Shown here: in pieces, positions 4,026-13,539 of the stretch
Numbering within the stretch: position 1 is the first letter of the stretch
How the letters are laid out: every line of letters begins with the position of its first letter
Assembly: GCA_011525625.1 (NCBI GenBank)
Contig: WYAX01000003.1
Coordinates: forward strand, 1 to 64,000
From: Nitrospira defluvii
GTDB lineage: Bacteria; Nitrospirota; Nitrospiria; Nitrospirales; Nitrospiraceae
DNA: 64,000 nt
Reading direction: 5' to 3'
Notes under the pieces: generated by a model
Databases searched by the model: none
The model's input: only the letters and a program-made list of their open reading frames with translations
Told to the model about the DNA's origin: nothing
Translations under genes and position numbers: made by a program

Positions 4026-4364
4026 ATGGGTGAGTGGGCCAAGTACGGACTGTACTTCCTCTTAGGCGGCACAATCGTGAGTATCTCAACCTATCTCGGC
4101 TCGCAAGGCCGATCGTTTCTCGCCGCCTTCGCCAGCACCTTCCCCGCCATGACCGGTGCGACGTTTATCCTCATCTATCTCAACGGCGGCAATGAGCATC
4201 TTGTCACCTATGCCAAGAACCTGCTCTGGTTCGTGCCCCCCTGGCTGGTCTATGTGGGCTGCATGATCTACGGCGTGGAACGCATCGGGTTCTGGTTCTC
4301 CATGGCAGGCGCCCTCGTCCTCTACATGGCCTGCGTCGCGCTCGTGAAATTCCTGGCGCGGTAG
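4026..4364 (+). CDS. GlpM/DUF3147-like small inner membrane protein
   Basis: A 112-residue protein with about four hydrophobic segments: GLYFLLGGTIVSIS, a segment around FPAMTGATFILIYL, LLWFVPPWLVYVGCMIYG and the C-terminal MAGALVLYMACVALVKFL. Pattern and length resemble GlpM-type proteins, whose role is poorly understood. A GGAGGTGG stretch precedes the start. A shorter, frameshifted copy lies at 8080-8331, about 4 kb downstream, which shows a past duplication. Family assignment is by recall of pattern and is moderate. Confidence 0.65.
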   Translation: MGEWAKYGLYFLLGGTIVSISTYLGSQGRSFLAAFASTFPAMTGATFILIYLNGGNEHLVTYAKNLLWFVPPWLVYVGCMIYGVERIGFWFSMAGALVLYMACVALVKFLAR

Positions 4365-4928: not shown

Positions 4929-6365
4929 ATGTCGAATCTGGACGACCGCATGCGGGCGATCATGCCGTCGCGGAGATCATTTCTTCAACGAATGGGATTG
5001 GGTGTCGGGGCGCTCGGCGCGGGCCTGTTCGGTGGCCTGACGTTGCCGGAGTCGGTGCTGGCCGTGTGCGAACCCCCGGGCAATCCCGGCACAGCAAAAC
5101 CGTGGCGCAAGGATTGTCGCATGATCCTCCCGCGCCGTCCGGCCAGCACATTGAGCGCGGCGGAGATCTCCCAACTCAAAGATGCCTACAAGGCCATGCG
5201 CGCACTCGATACCAGCGCCCCCAACGACCCGCGCGGATTCCTCCGGCAGGCCAACGTCCATTGTTGGTATTGCGGCGAGGGCACGCAGGTCCATTTCACC
5301 TGGCAATTCTTTGTCTGGCATCGCGCGTATTTGTACTTCCACGAGCGCATTCTCGGAAAGCTGATCGGCGACATGAATTTCCGCCTGCCCTACTGGGACT
5401 GGGACACCCCAAGTCACCGCAAGCTTCCCGGCGCCTATACCGATCCGAACGACAACAGCAACCCGCTATGGAACGGTAGCCGCGGCATGGATCCGACAGA
5501 CGAAATCCCGGAGGAGGATGTCGGGGAAGATGTCATGGAAGCCGCCCTCACGGCGGACAACTTCACGGAGTTCGGCGGGACGGCAAGCGGCAGCGGCATC
5601 CCTGAGGGAACACCCCATGGCGCGGTCCACGTCGATGTCGGCGGCGACATGGGCTTCTTCGATTCGGCCGGCAAGGATCCCGTCTTCTACGCGCACCATG
5701 CCAACGTGGACAAGATGTGGTCGGACTGGAACAAAGCCTCATCCATCCACACGAACCCGACGACATCGGCTTTCTTGAATCTGACATGGAATTTCTACGA
5801 CGAAAACAAAGTCTGGCGGTCGATCAAGGCGTCGCAGGTCCTGAACCACGACACCCAATTGCGCTATACGTATGGCCCCTCGAAGTTCTTGGAGCAGCTC
5901 CCCTGCCTCCTCGATTGGTTCCCCATCAAGACCGACTGGCGCGTCAGCCGGACCCTGAAGTTTGCCGGGCAGACGCGTGCTAAAATGATGAAAGTCGTCG
6001 AGCAGGGAGGACGCGCGAGACTGCACCTGACCGACCTCACCGTTCCCACGGAAAAGAGCGCTGTGTATCGACTCTATGCGACACCCGAAGCAGCGAAAGC
6101 CGATGAAGGCCCCGGCAGTAAGGGCTACCTCGGAACCGTGCCGGTGGTGTTGAACGATCGGGAGCGCCGGCATCTGTCCAAGCACGCACGAAACATCGCC
6201 GTCAGGCTCTCCACCGCCAAACTCGAAGCGTTGAGCGGGACCGTCGGTCCCGTGCGCCTGGCCCTGGTCGAGCGCGGAGTCAAACCTGAGGCCAGAAAGG
6301 TCATCCCGGTACGGGCGAAGGACGTCTCGCTGTCCCTCGCAGAGGTGGAACGCGAGGAACGGTAA
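4929..6365 (+). CDS. Tat-exported tyrosinase / polyphenol oxidase (plant-type architecture)
   Basis: This 478-residue type-3 copper enzyme should oxidise phenols or catechols to quinones outside the cytoplasm. A twin-arginine leader (SRRSFLQRMGLGVGALGAG, residues 14-32) opens it. Copper A ligands are His111, His122 and His131, with Cys115 placed four residues after His111, as in the Cys-His thioether of plant catechol oxidases. Copper B ligands are His230, His234 and His257 in a DPVFYAHHANVD motif. A DWL-like linker (RYTYGP, 312-317) and a beta-rich C-terminal domain (about 335-460) follow, as in plant polyphenol oxidases. AAGGAGGT precedes the ATG. An exported companion gene starts 2 bases after the stop. 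Confidence 0.92.
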   Translation: MSNLDDRMRAIMPSRRSFLQRMGLGVGALGAGLFGGLTLPESVLAVCEPPGNPGTAKPWRKDCRMILPRRPASTLSAAEISQLKDAYKAMRALDTSAPNDPRGFLRQANVHCWYCGEGTQVHFTWQFFVWHRAYLYFHERILGKLIGDMNFRLPYWDWDTPSHRKLPGAYTDPNDNSNPLWNGSRGMDPTDEIPEEDVGEDVMEAALTADNFTEFGGTASGSGIPEGTPHGAVHVDVGGDMGFFDSAGKDPVFYAHHANVDKMWSDWNKASSIHTNPTTSAFLNLTWNFYDENKVWRSIKASQVLNHDTQLRYTYGPSKFLEQLPCLLDWFPIKTDWRVSRTLKFAGQTRAKMMKVVEQGGRARLHLTDLTVPTEKSAVYRLYATPEAAKADEGPGSKGYLGTVPVVLNDRERRHLSKHARNIAVRLSTAKLEALSGTVGPVRLALVERGVKPEARKVIPVRAKDVSLSLAEVEREER

Positions 6366-6367
6366 CC

Positions 6368-6808
6368 ATGGGACGCATCTCCTGGCTCACGAGCGTCATG
6401 ATCCTGGCCGCACTGACGGTTCATGCGGAGGAAGGACCGCACCGGTTTTCCGTCGACTTACCGACCGGGTGGCAACAGGCCCCACATGTTCGATTAGTGC
6501 TGGAGGGTGTGACGGTCGCCGGGGGACAACCGTTCAAGCTGCGGGCAGCCGCCATCATCGAAGGGGCGGAACCGGTCATACTGGGCTCGGCGGGCATCGT
6601 GGGAGACCGATCGGTGGGATCGGCCCCGCGACGCCTGCCGACCCTACTGATCGATGTGACGCGCCCCCTCGGCTCGTTGGCCGACCGCCTGGGTACACAA
6701 ACGGCCATGACCATCCGCCTCGACCCCGTCGATGGTCGCAACGCCCCGTTGGATGGACTCGACTGGTCGGTGCAATCGGTGCGGCTGGAACGGGGTGGGC
6801 GCAACTAG
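6368..6808 (+). CDS. Exported tyrosinase companion, possible KFDV-like beta domain
   Basis: The 146-residue product has a short signal peptide ending at VHA-EE and a beta-rich body. Its later part (PVILGSAGIVGD, then LLIDVTRPLGSLADRL, then AMTIRLDP) has the same order of strands and helix as the C-terminal domain of the adjacent tyrosinase (GYLGTVPVVLND, NIAVRLSTAKLEAL, PVRLALVERG). It may therefore be a free-standing version of the plant PPO KFDV-type domain, which covers the copper site or assists maturation. This is my inference from pattern. The 2-base spacing shows translational coupling with the enzyme. Confidence 0.65.
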   Translation: MGRISWLTSVMILAALTVHAEEGPHRFSVDLPTGWQQAPHVRLVLEGVTVAGGQPFKLRAAAIIEGAEPVILGSAGIVGDRSVGSAPRRLPTLLIDVTRPLGSLADRLGTQTAMTIRLDPVDGRNAPLDGLDWSVQSVRLERGGRN

Positions 6809-8079: not shown

Positions 8080-8331
8080 GGGTTATCTCGCCGCCTTCGC
8101 CGGCACCTGCCCCGCGATGACCGACGCGACGTTCATCCTCATCTCTCTCAACGGCGGCACTGAGCATCTTGTCACCTATGCCAAGAGTCTGCTTTGGTTC
8201 GTGCCCCTTGGCGGGTCTATGTGGGCCGCATGATCTACGGCGTGGAACGCATCGGGTTCTGGTTCTCGATGGCAGGCGCGCTCGTCCTCTACATGGCCGG
8301 CGTCGCGATCGTGAAATTCTTGGCACGGTAA
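8080..8331 (+). pseudogene. Frameshifted partial copy of the GlpM-like gene
   Basis: From 8080 to the TAA at 8329-8331 the DNA matches codons ~35 to the end of the gene at 4026-4364 closely (shared LVTYAK, ERIGFWFSMAGALVLYMA and VKFLAR). The first third is missing, and one base has been lost in the stretch corresponding to VPPWLVYVG (near 8204-8212), so the two halves lie in different frames. No start codon or ribosome binding site serves it. It is a decayed duplicate sitting directly upstream of a toxin-antitoxin pair. Confidence 0.8.
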
Positions 8332-8440: not shown

Positions 8441-8836
8441 ATGACTCCCACCGCAATGACAGAGTTTCTGACCGAGCATATCCCGGAACTCATCGCCATT
8501 TACCAATTCGGCTCACAGGCTCGTGGTGACGCCAGCCGGTCGAGCGATATCGACCTGGCCGTCCTCGCACGCGCCCCGATCTCGGCAGAGACGCTCTTTC
8601 AGATCGCACAGGATCTCGCCATTCAACTCCATCGCGATGTGGATCTTCTGGATCTTCGGGCAGCCTCCACAGTCATGCGCGCCCAAGTCATCGCCACAGG
8701 CCAATGCCTCGACAGCAAAGACGAGCCGGCACGGGCGGAATTTGAAATGTACGCCTACTCAGACTATGCACGGTTGAACGAGGAACGCCGGGACATCCTC
8801 AGGGACATCAAAGAGCGCGGGCTGATCTATGGCTGA
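8441..8836 (+). CDS. mntA: MntA-type minimal nucleotidyltransferase antitoxin
   Basis: The 131-residue protein has the minimal nucleotidyltransferase signature GSQARGDASRSSDIDLAVL (from residue 24), with metal-binding Asp37 and Asp39 and a later DVD (66-68). In characterised type VII toxin-antitoxin pairs, MntA adds AMP to a Tyr of the HepT toxin and silences it. The last 8 bases overlap hepT, which gives translational coupling. An alternative start exists at residue 6. It sits next to a decayed duplicate and other accessory genes. Confidence 0.88.
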   Translation: MTPTAMTEFLTEHIPELIAIYQFGSQARGDASRSSDIDLAVLARAPISAETLFQIAQDLAIQLHRDVDLLDLRAASTVMRAQVIATGQCLDSKDEPARAEFEMYAYSDYARLNEERRDILRDIKERGLIYG

Positions 8837-9242
8837 TGATGTGATCTTGAACAAAGCCGCACGCATCGAACGATGCCTGCGCCGCATCACCGAAGAGTAC
8901 GGCGGAGATCCACGGAATCTGTCAGGGAATCAAACCAAGCAGGATGCCATTGTACTCAACCTGCAGCGCGCATGCGAAACTGCCATTGACCTCGCGATGT
9001 ATGTCGTCAGACAGAAAGGCTTAGGACTTCCGCAGGAAAGCAGGGAGGCTTTTGCCTTACTAGAGAAAGCGGGGCTGCTCCCGGCTGAGTTAGCGAGCCG
9101 GCTGCAGCGAATGGTCGGCTTCCGGAATGTGGCCGTCCACGAATACGCCCGCCTGAACCTCGATATCCTCAACGCGATTATCACCACACACCTCGATGAC
9201 TTTCGCCGGTTCTCCTCGACCATCGTCAAGGCCTGTGCATAG
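8829..9242 (+). CDS. hepT: HepT-type toxin (HEPN domain)
   Basis: The 137-residue all-helical protein ends in the HEPN active-site motif RNVAVHEY (Arg99, His104, Tyr106; R-x4-H-x-Y). HepT proteins are toxic HEPN ribonucleases; the motif Tyr is the residue AMPylated by MntA in studied systems. It overlaps mntA by 8 bp and is the second gene of the pair. All motif residues are intact, so it is probably functional. Its stop is convergent with the next gene, 11 bases away. Confidence 0.88.
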   Translation: MADDVILNKAARIERCLRRITEEYGGDPRNLSGNQTKQDAIVLNLQRACETAIDLAMYVVRQKGLGLPQESREAFALLEKAGLLPAELASRLQRMVGFRNVAVHEYARLNLDILNAIITTHLDDFRRFSSTIVKACA

Positions 9243-9253
9243 ACGCCTGGCGG

Positions 9254-10540
9254 TTAGGCCCCCAGCAAGTCCCTCAATGGTTTCGCCCGGGCGAGCCGTG
9301 CGCGCAGGGAGTTGAGACCTTCCCGCCCGATTACCTCAGGCAGCCTCAGCCCTGGAGGCAAGACCGCAAAACGGAGCTGCCCGACGGACCGGCCACACCC
9401 ATCGATCAGATCGTGTAAAAACTCCACCGTGATGTCGTCTTGCCGGATGGGCCAGATCGCGCTCGGCACTCGCTGCAAATACAGGGTCAGGCGCCGGCCG
9501 TATTCTGCCGGGTCAAGTGGTGCCACATACACGGCTTTTTCGATTTCATCCTGGGCCAGCAGTACGACATCCCACGGTCGTTCAGCCAGGATCACCGCTG
9601 CAGATGACGCTCGCCCGGTCTCCGCAGACAAAACCAACCGATCAGCGCGATGGGGGGAAATCAGCCTGAACCCATACGGCAAGGAATACGAGGTCCACAT
9701 GGCCTCAGCATTCTGGTGCGTGGCTTGTTCATAGAACCCACGGCACCTCCCATCCGCATCCCTAGTCGGGATCAGTACCCGTATGTCTGATTCATCGCCA
9801 TGGCAAGCAAGCCATCCGGGGATACCGAAGTCCTCCAACTCGGCTTGATCGAATCCCTTTGTGCGAAGGTGCGGGATGAGCGTGTGCCGGATCTCCTTCG
9901 ACAGGAGGCCGAGCGAAAACTGTTCGCTGGCCTCTTGGGTCACACCTTCCCCTTCGATCCATTCACGGGCAGCACGACCAGCAGAACCCTGCTGCAGCGC
10001 CTCGCAGGCCAACCAGCACACTTCGTCAAGTGCAAGACCCATTCGCTCCAGCCAAGGTCGGTTTCCCTTCAAAGAACCGGAAGCCAGCAACCCAGTCAGC
10101 CTGGGAATCGCCTCCGCCGGTGTGAGCCGCTCCACACTGATATAGAAATCCAACGCGTGGCCGCCGGCAAGACAGTGCGTGCAGAAATAGGACTCGTCAC
10201 GGCTACCGACCATGAGCGAATCAGGGCCCTGACAACAAAAGGTACAGGGCCCCCGATAGTCGCGCGATCCAGCACCAACCGGCATGAGCTGGCTATAGCG
10301 CCCGATCAATTCGACGCCATCCAGATCATCCAACAGGTCTTCCCACTGCTCGACAGCGGACAGAATCGAAGGCGAGTCCCTGATTGCGGGGAGAATGTCC
10401 GAAAAAGTTTGACGAGCCAGAACTGATGAATGAGGGTTTGAGGTGGTTAGGCGGAGCTTTTGAGCCCACGCCTGATTCGGCCACACCGAGCGAGCGCCAA
10501 CTGCCACCAAGAGTTTGAACAAGGTGCGTCTTGTGAACAT
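9254..10540 (-). CDS. DnaG-primase-like zinc-finger protein with a Tat-type leader
   Basis: This 428-residue protein begins with a twin-arginine-like leader (TRRTLFKLLVAVGA at 3-16, then NQAWA-Q near 22-27). Next comes a DnaG N-terminal-type region (GVELIGRYSQLMP, 75-87), a CxxC...CxxC zinc finger (Cys99, 102, 120, 123), and the primase-core-like segments AAREWIEGEGVTQEASEQFS (190-209) and SDIRVLIPTRDADGRCRGF (251-269). The expected TOPRIM part is degenerate: Glu307 may remain, but no DGD motif is seen. GAAGGAGGGG just before the ATG at 10540 fixes the start, so the leader is real. Export of a primase-like protein is unexpected; the leader may only anchor it. Function is unknown. Confidence 0.72.
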   Translation of the reverse strand: MFTRRTLFKLLVAVGARSVWPNQAWAQKLRLTTSNPHSSVLARQTFSDILPAIRDSPSILSAVEQWEDLLDDLDGVELIGRYSQLMPVGAGSRDYRGPCTFCCQGPDSLMVGSRDESYFCTHCLAGGHALDFYISVERLTPAEAIPRLTGLLASGSLKGNRPWLERMGLALDEVCWLACEALQQGSAGRAAREWIEGEGVTQEASEQFSLGLLSKEIRHTLIPHLRTKGFDQAELEDFGIPGWLACHGDESDIRVLIPTRDADGRCRGFYEQATHQNAEAMWTSYSLPYGFRLISPHRADRLVLSAETGRASSAAVILAERPWDVVLLAQDEIEKAVYVAPLDPAEYGRRLTLYLQRVPSAIWPIRQDDITVEFLHDLIDGCGRSVGQLRFAVLPPGLRLPEVIGREGLNSLRARLARAKPLRDLLGA

Positions 10541-10772
10541 GATTCCCCTCCTTCATGTTGGATGAACGAGGGGAGCGTACTATAGACGTGTGACAGAGTA
10601 GGTCATGGGGAGGACCTGAACAACCAGACAAATCAATCAGTCGAAGCTTGCAGCCAACACAAGATTGATGACCGACCAACTTCTTGTGATTGATGCTGAG
10701 ACAGCATCAATTGTCCATGGTAATTTCTAACGCACCTTTGTCAAAGGGATGCTCTTCTTTTAACAATACCGC

Positions 10773-11906
10773 TCACTGCCCACTGGGAATAGGTGTTGCG
10801 GCGGTCAAGCCTGGCTTCCAATCAGGCGCCATAAACAATAACGCCTCTTTTGCACCACCGCATGGCTTACCGTTTGTCGCCATCAGAGGATAAGAATCCA
10901 TCATTCGCGTTAAATTGAGATATGCCTGCGGATGCTCTGTAAACTTCCCACTGCAATCCTTTAAATAAACTCCATATCTCAAACCATCGGTAACTATTAG
11001 CCTATGGCACTGACTTCTGCCCGGTTGGGATGCGTAATGCTCCGCTTTCGACCGCGCGGTTATACAGGAATCTCCCCGTTTCTTTGCCTCTACTGCAACC
11101 GCAAGATTACCAGCGTCGCGTGGCATTCGCTCAAAAAGAGCAACATCAACATAGTTCCACTCAACGGACATTTTCTGCGGCGTCCATCCCAGTGAGCGAA
11201 GAAGCGGCACAGCCAAGTATGCTACGGTTTCATGCTCCGACGGCTGTTGATTTGTTCGCTCGTACCACTGTGCAATTCGCATTAACTCATTAATGTTACT
11301 CATCAAAGAGTCAATAAAGGTGGCAGAAACACCTTGATCAAACAGATGGTCGCCGATCGTCTTCAGTTCAACCGTCTGCAACCGTTGAGCATGATTGCAC
11401 GAAGTCGGAAGCGAGCAGAGCGGCTTTGCCAAGGAATCCTGAGTCGGCTCAGGAAGCTGATCTAGCCATCTCATTAGCTCAGGAGCATCCTTGACCAATT
11501 GAACGGTATCACCAAACTTCATCGTGTATGCGGGAAACCTCTGTGGCTCATCTTCGCATTTCCAGAGCCACCTGACCCTTCGGACATGTTGTAAATCCCA
11601 ACCGTCGACATCTCCAAAATCATCTAACCATAAGTACCCTCCTTCGGCCTGCCCAACGCCATACACCTCACTAGTCCCCAAACGGAGCAGCACTAGATCC
11701 TCACTATGTATTCCTTCACAGAAGCGTTGAAGATCTGTCACCCTTCTCGACGTACTATTGCCTGACAATGCCTCCTTACAATTGGGCCACGGACCAGCGT
11801 CTCCAGGCCCCATTGCGATCACGTCCCATTCCAGAAGCAGCCTGGGATAGTTCCGATTCGTATCCCCTGAGCCAACCTGCCAGATGCGTTTACCGTCAAT
11901 ATTCAT
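10773..11906 (-). CDS. Candidate modification-dependent nuclease: PUA/EVE-like + PD-(D/E)XK
   Basis: The 377-residue protein has two parts. Residues 1-116 (IWQVGSGDTNRNYPRLLLEW, IAMGPGD, SEDLVLLRLG, VYGVGQAEGGYLW, VRRVRWLW) resemble PUA/EVE-like domains that read modified bases. Residues ~205-320 resemble type I restriction HsdR-N nucleases, with Glu226, Asp254 (YVDVALF) and Glu273-x-Lys275 (AVEAKK) forming a PD-(D/E)XK site. Together these suggest a stand-alone, modification-dependent restriction enzyme, though this is inference. The gene is visibly more AT-rich than its flanks, a sign of transfer. No methylase lies nearby. Only AAAGGG precedes the start. Confidence 0.65.
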   Translation of the reverse strand: MNIDGKRIWQVGSGDTNRNYPRLLLEWDVIAMGPGDAGPWPNCKEALSGNSTSRRVTDLQRFCEGIHSEDLVLLRLGTSEVYGVGQAEGGYLWLDDFGDVDGWDLQHVRRVRWLWKCEDEPQRFPAYTMKFGDTVQLVKDAPELMRWLDQLPEPTQDSLAKPLCSLPTSCNHAQRLQTVELKTIGDHLFDQGVSATFIDSLMSNINELMRIAQWYERTNQQPSEHETVAYLAVPLLRSLGWTPQKMSVEWNYVDVALFERMPRDAGNLAVAVEAKKRGDSCITARSKAEHYASQPGRSQCHRLIVTDGLRYGVYLKDCSGKFTEHPQAYLNLTRMMDSYPLMATNGKPCGGAKEALLFMAPDWKPGLTAATPIPSGQ

Positions 11907-12531
11907 CTATTTGCCCTTTCGTGAACTCCATGAAGGTGTGGACACACAATTTGCCTCGACCGATACTATTTTATAGCCCCCAATTAACTTCAGGTTTCCA
12001 CAGAGATCAATCCAGTCACGGCCTCACGCCGCAGCCTAGCAGCACAGTCCTCCACAAGCTGTCGACGGCGTTTAGGCGCTGAAATGGGTCGTCGATCTGA
12101 TTCGCCAGTTCGAATTCCGGCCTCGCCTCATCGAACTCCTTCCGGCAACTGATCTGCTCTTGAATGACCTGCGCCAAGGATTTGTTCAGCGTGAGCTGCA
12201 TCAGAGAATCTGCCGGAACCAGAACCTGCAGCATGAACACGACCAGTCATTCCATGATGAACCTCCGTGACTTGGCGTCTATCGCCTCAGCATGATCCGC
12301 ATTCGCCCCCCGCCCTTCACAGGGAGAGATCAAGAACGAGGGCCACAGTCTCTCACAGAGGCGTGACAGAAAATGTCAGAGGACAGGCGGCTGACAGTCC
12401 AACCGCGCGCAACCAACTGCAGCCTTCTCAGGCCGAACATGCCCGCCAAGCCCCATGGCATTTTCCTGACTGGGATAGAATTGGTCGTCCGAAACACGAT
12501 GGGCATTCGGAGTGCATGGTTGCAGAACGGA
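11907..12531. other. AT-richer accessory intergenic stretch
   Basis: Apart from one weak short frame (12016-12240, minus), I see no gene here. Composition is similar to the neighbouring nuclease gene. No integrase, direct repeat or tRNA marks an island border. Confidence 0.4.
12016..12240 (-). CDS. Weakly supported 74-residue hypothetical protein
   Basis: A GTG-initiated frame gives a mostly helical, acidic protein (segment QEQISCRKEFDEARPEFEL). A GGAGG lies upstream but about 20 bases away, and an ATG at better spacing runs into a stop two codons later in the same frame. This may be a gene whose 5' end has been damaged. Function is unknown. Confidence 0.3.
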   Translation of the reverse strand: MFMLQVLVPADSLMQLTLNKSLAQVIQEQISCRKEFDEARPEFELANQIDDPFQRLNAVDSLWRTVLLGCGVRP

Positions 12532-13539
12532 CTAGGAATAGTGTCGCAACGCGTGGGTCAGTCGAGACCTCACAAGCTCAACCAATACCGGAGGTTCGAG
12601 CACGACGGCGTCAGGGCCCCAAGATAGAATCCACGTCGCTGATCCGTCCGTGCCGCCGATGGACAATGTGACGACAATGGATCCATCTTTTTCGACCGCA
12701 TGCTTTTGGCTAGGGTGCTAGCGACGCTCCTTGATGAGATACGCCACTTCGGCACTGAAACGGATCCGCACCAGCTGCACCGGTTCGTCGATGAGACCAA
12801 AGAGCCGTTCATAGCTTGTATCTAGGTTCAAGTCCGTCAGTATCTCGAATGACTGGTCAGACACATCGACAGCGACGATGCGCTCAACCGCAAAGAGGCG
12901 AAGAGCCTGGGCACGATGCGAGAATCCCAACACATAGACGCCGAACTGATGAAACACCACGCGGTAAGGATCCACACGATGCTCGACAGGCTCCTCATAA
13001 TCCGGCCTGATGTGATGCAGTGTCACAGCCCGCTGAAGGAGCAGCGCCTTCTCCAATTTGGCCAAGACTTCAGCCTGCCGGGCATAGTCACGAACGGGCG
13101 CTTGTCGCGGCAGGAACACGTCGTGAATGCGGGCAAGATGGTTCGCCACTTTATCGGGCAGCGCACTCTCGACCTTTTCCGCCAGCGTGGTGAGGTGCTC
13201 GACCAGAGGCGTGCCCCTCAGATACGCCATATGGCTCTTTGCGCAATGCAATGGCATGAGCTCATAGGGTGTCACGGCAATTTGGGGAAGCCCTTTGTAC
13301 CCGAGTGGCAGTCGCCAGGTCTTTGCGCCATCCCCATCGGATTGTTCGAGTGGATGCCCTGCCTCTTGAATGCTCGCGAGATCGCGATAGACCTGACGCA
13401 CCGATATCGCAAGTTTACGAGACAGATCGCTCACCGACATCTCCCGACTGGCCAACACCCGAAGCATTCGCGTGAATCGATCCGCCTGGCTATAGGCTTT
13501 GGCCCGTCGTCCCAGCTTCGGCACTACGCGATCCGCCAT
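12532..13539 (-). pseudogene. WYL-domain transcriptional regulator with in-frame TAG
   Basis: An N-terminal helix-turn-helix (SVSDLSRKLAISVRQVYRDL, residues 35-54) and a WYL ligand domain (~160-245, DPYRVVFHQFGVYVLGFSHR) are intact. The frame then ends in TAG at 12718-12720, where the family has Trp in a WHPSQ motif. Beyond it the same frame continues HPSQKHAVEKDGSIVVTLSI and onward to a TAG at 12532-12534, completing the C-terminal WCX domain. A single TGG-to-TAG change therefore truncates a normal ~335-residue regulator to 273 residues. It starts 2 bases after the arylamine N-acetyltransferase stop and shares its operon. The shortened protein may still bind DNA. Confidence 0.82.

Follow-up and report, generated by a model that had tools for sequence, protein, structure and literature searches.

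Zinc-ribbon proteins usually work in the cytoplasm. In the bacterial primase DnaG (TIGR01391), such a ribbon is followed by an RNA-polymerase-domain core and a helicase-binding C-terminal domain. In archaea, a DnaG-type protein has the role of a binding subunit and not that of the replicative primase; it differs from the protein described here in forming part of the cytoplasmic RNA exosome cap, in lacking a leader and in its domains (PMC4227792). Among the WYL regulators, PafBC, DriD and SiwR bind single-stranded DNA and switch genes on in response to genotoxic stress (PMC11804915, PMC12340889, PMC10693628), and BrxR-type regulators are found beside defence systems (PMC9122601). In these cases the presumed target adjoins the HTH-WYL-WCX regulator, and defence genes are often close by (PMC9122601, PMC11804915, PMC10693628).

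The gene analysed here lies in a window of 64,000 nucleotides, the whole stretch of Nitrospira defluvii DNA that was examined. It encodes a protein of 428 residues, hereafter Tat-DnaG, which opens with a Tat leader and continues through a variable linker to a DnaG zinc ribbon and then a complete core fold of the DnaG type. Comparison with bacterial DnaG showed that zinc ribbon and core have the same fold and come in the same order. However, Tat-DnaG has an added Tat leader and linker and a C4 instead of a CHCC zinc site, and is without the catalytic acids, most of the conserved basic residues and the helicase-binding C-terminal domain. It resembles Tat-exported metalloproteins, such as the tyrosinase encoded at 4929-6365 of the window, in its SRR/TRR-x-F-L-K-type leader, which is typical of proteins exported folded with their cofactor, but its cargo is a primase-derived zinc protein. 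Like the targets of PafBC, DriD, SiwR and BrxR, it belongs with a WYL regulator; unlike them, it is a dead and predicted-exported primase paralogue, for which WYL control is proposed by analogy only. A search of open papers for a Tat-targeted or inactive primase-fold protein found nothing relevant. Separately, fold and leader are known; neither their lasting combination nor the loss of catalysis nor the WYL unit was found described in the literature searched. Overall, the observation of the original prediction was confirmed and its interpretation was supported in part. The features of the gene are as follows.

9254-10540, minus strand: Tat-DnaG, second paralogue ('MFTRR' type), intact
10547-10552, minus strand: Shine-Dalgarno sequence AGGAGG, ahead of the ATG
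10460-10540, minus strand: Tat leader, residues 1-27 (RR at 4-5, h-region, AWA-Q)
10370-10459, minus strand: variable, disordered linker, residues 28-57
10079-10369, minus strand: DnaG-type zinc ribbon with C4 site, residues 58-154
9257-10063, minus strand: DnaG-type core fold with degenerate TOPRIM, residues 160-428

The Shine-Dalgarno sequence is a perfect match (6/6), and a scan of the first 75 codons found no internal in-frame start with more than 4/6 matches, in agreement with the earlier claim that the ribosome-binding site fixes the start and that the leader is no artefact. A match of 4 to 6 of 6 precedes the conserved start across the Tat-DnaG members. A wrong start or annotation artefact was thus ruled out by the Shine-Dalgarno sequence at the conserved start together with the retention of the leader in 24/24 members. 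True DnaG is encoded separately in the host genome and matches the Tat-DnaG query weakly (E 1.1e-6).

Pfam recognized Zn_ribbon_DnaG (PF01807) at residues 66-148 (E 1e-6, above the cut-off) and DNAG_N at residues 186-273 (E 3.5e-4, below the cut-off). A profile of 21 members matched the E. coli DnaG core with an E of 4.7e-31 and the A. aeolicus structure of zinc domain plus core with an E of 8e-26. The AlphaFold model has a mean pLDDT of 75, with a disordered leader and linker (pLDDT under 50 for residues 13-59). Alignment of its residues 160-428 against the E. coli DnaG core (3b39) gave a Z of 21.1 and an rmsd of 2.9 Å over 250 residues, and residues 58-154 aligned to the B. stearothermophilus primase zinc domain (1d0q) with a Z of 11.1 and an rmsd of 2.3 Å over 94 residues. 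The DnaG order proposed from the sequence is therefore borne out, and the profile matches and structural alignments indicate that the whole core fold is present, beyond the mere start that had been suggested. Its last residue, 428, aligns to residue 374 of E. coli DnaG, so that the ORF ends with the core and the helicase-binding domain is absent.

The zinc ligands are four cysteines (C99, C102, C120 and C123), and this C4 site is found in 24/24 members, versus CHCC in 11/11 DnaG proteins of the phylum. The active site differs from that of DnaG. In the DGD motif, the absence of which had been noticed originally, the equivalent of D309 is lost in 13/21 members and kept in 8/21, and that of D311 is lost in 20/21 and kept in 1/21; in the DPD motif, the equivalents of D345 and D347 are lost in 19/21 and 21/21, respectively. 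Most of the basic residues conserved in DnaG are replaced (R168, R231, R233, R251, K259 and K271 in host DnaG numbering), and the mature proteins are mostly acidic, with a pI of 4.9-7.0, whereas five DnaG segments have values of 6.5-9.1. The tree splits DnaG from the Tat-DnaG family with a support of 1.000 and a branch length of 1.52. With the catalytic metal sites and most of the DnaG-conserved basic residues gone and a mostly acidic mature protein, Tat-DnaG looks like a dead paralogue, and the sequence-based loss of acids and basic residues argues against primer synthesis.

These changes also bear on an alternative in which the exported protein binds nucleic acid, with zinc ribbon and primase groove holding single-stranded DNA or RNA on its way into or out of the cell during phage infection, conjugation or uptake. 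Primase ancestry, an intact zinc ribbon, a WYL neighbour of the ssDNA-sensing type and a defence-type neighbourhood all speak for it, and the ribbon alone could still bind. However, the TOPRIM acids are lost in most members, the basic residues are replaced and the mature protein is acidic, which makes binding in the primase groove doubtful, and we consider this alternative unlikely. Hence the original view of a DnaG-derived zinc protein with a leader, which proved to be conserved, holds, whereas its suggested action on incoming DNA is weakened.

The N-terminus of the window protein reads MFTRRTLFKLLVAVGARSVWPNQAWA-Q. Arg4 and Arg5 are invariant in all 24 members despite the use of four and five different Arg codons, and RRx[LF][FLI][KRQ] is present in every one; position 7 is L or F, position 8 is F, I or L, and position 9 is K in 22. 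Not a single acidic residue occurs among the first 22 residues of any member. The 338 further gene calls in these loci contained the RR leader motif only in the Tat-leader tyrosinase (four copies) and in one spurious ORF. Given this near absence and the RR at positions 4-5 throughout, the leader is beyond chance, and the original reading of a Tat-type leader ending AWA-Q is upheld. Of the two outcomes named originally as speaking against that reading, neither occurred: the leader is kept by the homologues, and the predicted structure has both the zinc and the core domain of DnaG. In ten close pairs the dN/dS of the leader is 0.2-0.4 where computable versus 0.3-1.0 for the linker, the counts being small. 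The curated Tat models match a minority of members, as is common with short models: PF10518 (TAT_signal) matches 4/21 with a best E of 7.5e-4 and TIGR01409 matches 4/21 with a best E of 0.022, the window copy not being among the reported matches. The leader is therefore named Tat-type by its anatomy and conservation and not by a predictor. Two TatC genes in the host genome (E 7e-60 and 1e-59) represent the translocon. Judged from sequence, the leader is genuine, conserved and of the Tat type, and export itself is predicted.

In the window copy, AWA-Q resembles a signal-peptidase A-x-A site, and near positions 22-36, 19/24 members combine an Ala at -1 with a -3 residue that is small or aliphatic. 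A clear site is missing at the scanned positions in four or five members, so the leader may stay uncleaved. Tat-DnaG could then be a cytoplasmic protein tethered by an uncleaved membrane or Tat-docking anchor, with its domains inside as the partner-binding subunit of a defence or replication complex. A conserved leader without a uniform cleavage site would fit such an arrangement, as would the generally cytoplasmic place of zinc-ribbon proteins and of the cargo nucleases. The full Tat anatomy, namely the RR motif, a weakly hydrophobic segment, the lack of acidic residues and an A-x-A-like site in most members, is against it, and we regard the tethered form as rather improbable.

Relatives were searched in the genus, the family, the order and a sample of the phylum. 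Among the 236 genomes of the order, 18 have a match with E <=1e-45 and one further genome (G120) has a truncated copy, giving 19/236. The 24 leader-bearing members were all found in the Nitrospira order, one of them in a second family; this genome (G275) is the only one outside the home family with a member, and it too has a Tat-type leader (MVSRRTFFKNIMGCLGAGIVWPAIGYGE). The other matches listed for the phylum sample start downstream of the leader and belong to long frames, the pattern expected of DnaG itself. A scan of genome contigs found a single relative, a Nitrospira, and a scan of viral contigs found none. A one-off fusion in this genome was ruled out by the relatives found in other genomes of the order, and tblastn of plasmids and phages, which gave only DnaG-like matches without a leader, rejected a phage or plasmid origin. 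Several genomes have two or three paralogues within a few kb, with the 'MLTRR' type adjoining the WYL gene and the 'MFTRR' type, to which the window copy belongs, further on. Cluster c15 (L044:7349-7657(-) and relatives), a conserved protein of about 80 aa (YIYTNWRGKQFVIDESFIDDMKK...) without a Pfam match, precedes the second paralogue in several genomes.

Truncated members (L044, L045, L047, L055 and L056) and broken neighbours in this genome might suggest that Tat-DnaG descends from a mobile-element primase, picked up a Tat leader by chance and is now decaying without a present function. However, the dN/dS of leader, zinc ribbon and core is mostly 0.1-0.5 in close pairs, and by this measure they are under purifying selection. 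In addition, intact copies occur in several genera and in the second family, and no leader-bearing phage or plasmid relative was found, so that mere decay is very unlikely. A working primase or other membrane-directed enzyme with an altered TOPRIM site is scarcely credible, since despite an E265 equivalent kept in 15/21 members and a D or E at the D269 equivalent in 21/21, the DGD and DPD acids and the template-contact residues are lost, and the TIGR01391 equivalog score of the window protein is 43.9 bits against a cut-off of 283.6.

In 13/17 loci, the gene immediately upstream of Tat-DnaG, in the same direction and 78-374 bp away, encodes a WYL-WCX regulator. These loci include that of G275 in the other family, where the wider neighbourhood is unrelated. 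This WYL subfamily occurs in the same 19/236 genomes as Tat-DnaG, a sharp match that is partly circular because the profile used in the search came from WYL genes next to Tat-DnaG. A looser cut gave a co-occurrence with p 1.7e-19, to be read with the subfamily cut having been chosen after the data were seen and the genomes of one order not being independent. Among the weaker WYL homologues, some are followed by other neighbours, without Tat-DnaG. In L121 and L125-L130, Tat-DnaG is replaced by a conserved downstream neighbour of 410-430 aa (MSESLYLQRQSNRFLAAHPREAGW...), and the WYL gene belongs to a different subfamily. At the end of the first paralogue, several loci have a small protein, c11, that overlaps or adjoins it. 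In L117 (G003:C16:281534), the WYL gene belongs to the Tat-DnaG-associated subfamily but is far from the Tat-DnaG remnant; c11 follows this WYL gene in the place of Tat-DnaG, and a GmrSD-like gene precedes it.

We propose a working model that we hold to be about evenly balanced as a whole: a family of dead DnaG paralogues under WYL control, acting by binding at the envelope, jointly with Tat-DnaG being a Nitrospirales-specific family of non-catalytic DnaG paralogues (across the order, the phylum sample and one contig scan). By analogy with PafBC, DriD and SiwR, the WYL protein would sense single-stranded DNA or another stress signal and switch the unit on. Tat-DnaG would fold around its zinc in the cytoplasm, and Tat would then carry the folded protein to the outer face of the inner membrane or leave it tethered there. 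At this place it might work by binding, most likely to a protein partner and with less likelihood to nucleic acid, in a response to envelope stress or invaders. More specifically, and only tentatively, the WYL-switched dead primase, exported folded by Tat, could be a periplasmic binder of phage or conjugative components or a signalling partner of c11. The anatomy and the leader are the most secure parts, export is weaker and the defence role is weakest. Replication enzymes are cytoplasmic, and a conserved non-catalytic primase fold behind a Tat leader would show repurposing outside the cytoplasm. The compact unit of WYL regulator and predicted-exported protein can be tested in few experiments, and its presence flags a variable locus rich in nucleases in Nitrospira, one of the major genera of nitrifiers.

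Within Nitrospira, the unit is flanked by uvrA/NAT on one side and by a metallo-beta-lactamase-like gene on the other. The same flanks enclose other contents in six genomes that lack the unit; WYL is absent there, and one of these genomes holds a Tat-DnaG remnant of 39 aa. Six of the loci contained no tRNA gene and thus show no sign of tRNA-targeted integration. Between or beside the paralogues are exchangeable restriction or candidate defence-type genes (PDC-M15A/B, PDC-S01, PDC-S02/Mrr, PDC-S26, GmrSD_N, MazF, PIN and MNT-HepT, most of them candidate systems only) and toxin-antitoxin pairs. The toxin-antitoxin pair and nuclease noted originally belong to this exchangeable hotspot cargo; the steady partner is the WYL-WCX regulator, which had gone unmentioned. 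The defence link, the weakest part of the model, rests on this neighbourhood, and hotspots collect cargo whatever its function. In the window, the neighbours are as follows.

8441-8836, plus strand: MNT nucleotidyltransferase antitoxin, cargo (PF18765, E 3e-19)
8829-9242, plus strand: HepT ribonuclease toxin, cargo (PF01934, E 3e-28)
10773-11906, minus strand: nuclease-like cargo gene, 377 aa (weak PADLOC match to PDC-S02, E 8e-4; no Pfam match)
12019-12297, minus strand: c11, which follows the first Tat-DnaG paralogue elsewhere; in-frame stop near the N-terminus here
12298-12534, minus strand: expected place of the WYL-adjacent 'MLTRR' paralogue, absent here and in L042
12535-13539, minus strand: WYL-WCX regulator broken by a single in-frame TAG (ORF 12718-13539); relatives intact

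The window WYL gene is about 2 kb from Tat-DnaG, and tblastn of all neighbours found no piece of the WYL-adjacent paralogue between 12297 and 12535. With stops in WYL and c11 and this paralogue missing, the window Tat-DnaG may no longer be WYL-controlled. Elsewhere in the window, two frame-shifted pieces at 8084-8328 form a second copy of a 112-aa membrane protein that is intact at 4026-4364. The tyrosinase with its classical Tat leader is followed by a 146-aa gene (4929-6808 together), and the pair recurs in the same hotspot in L045, L047, L054 and L146.
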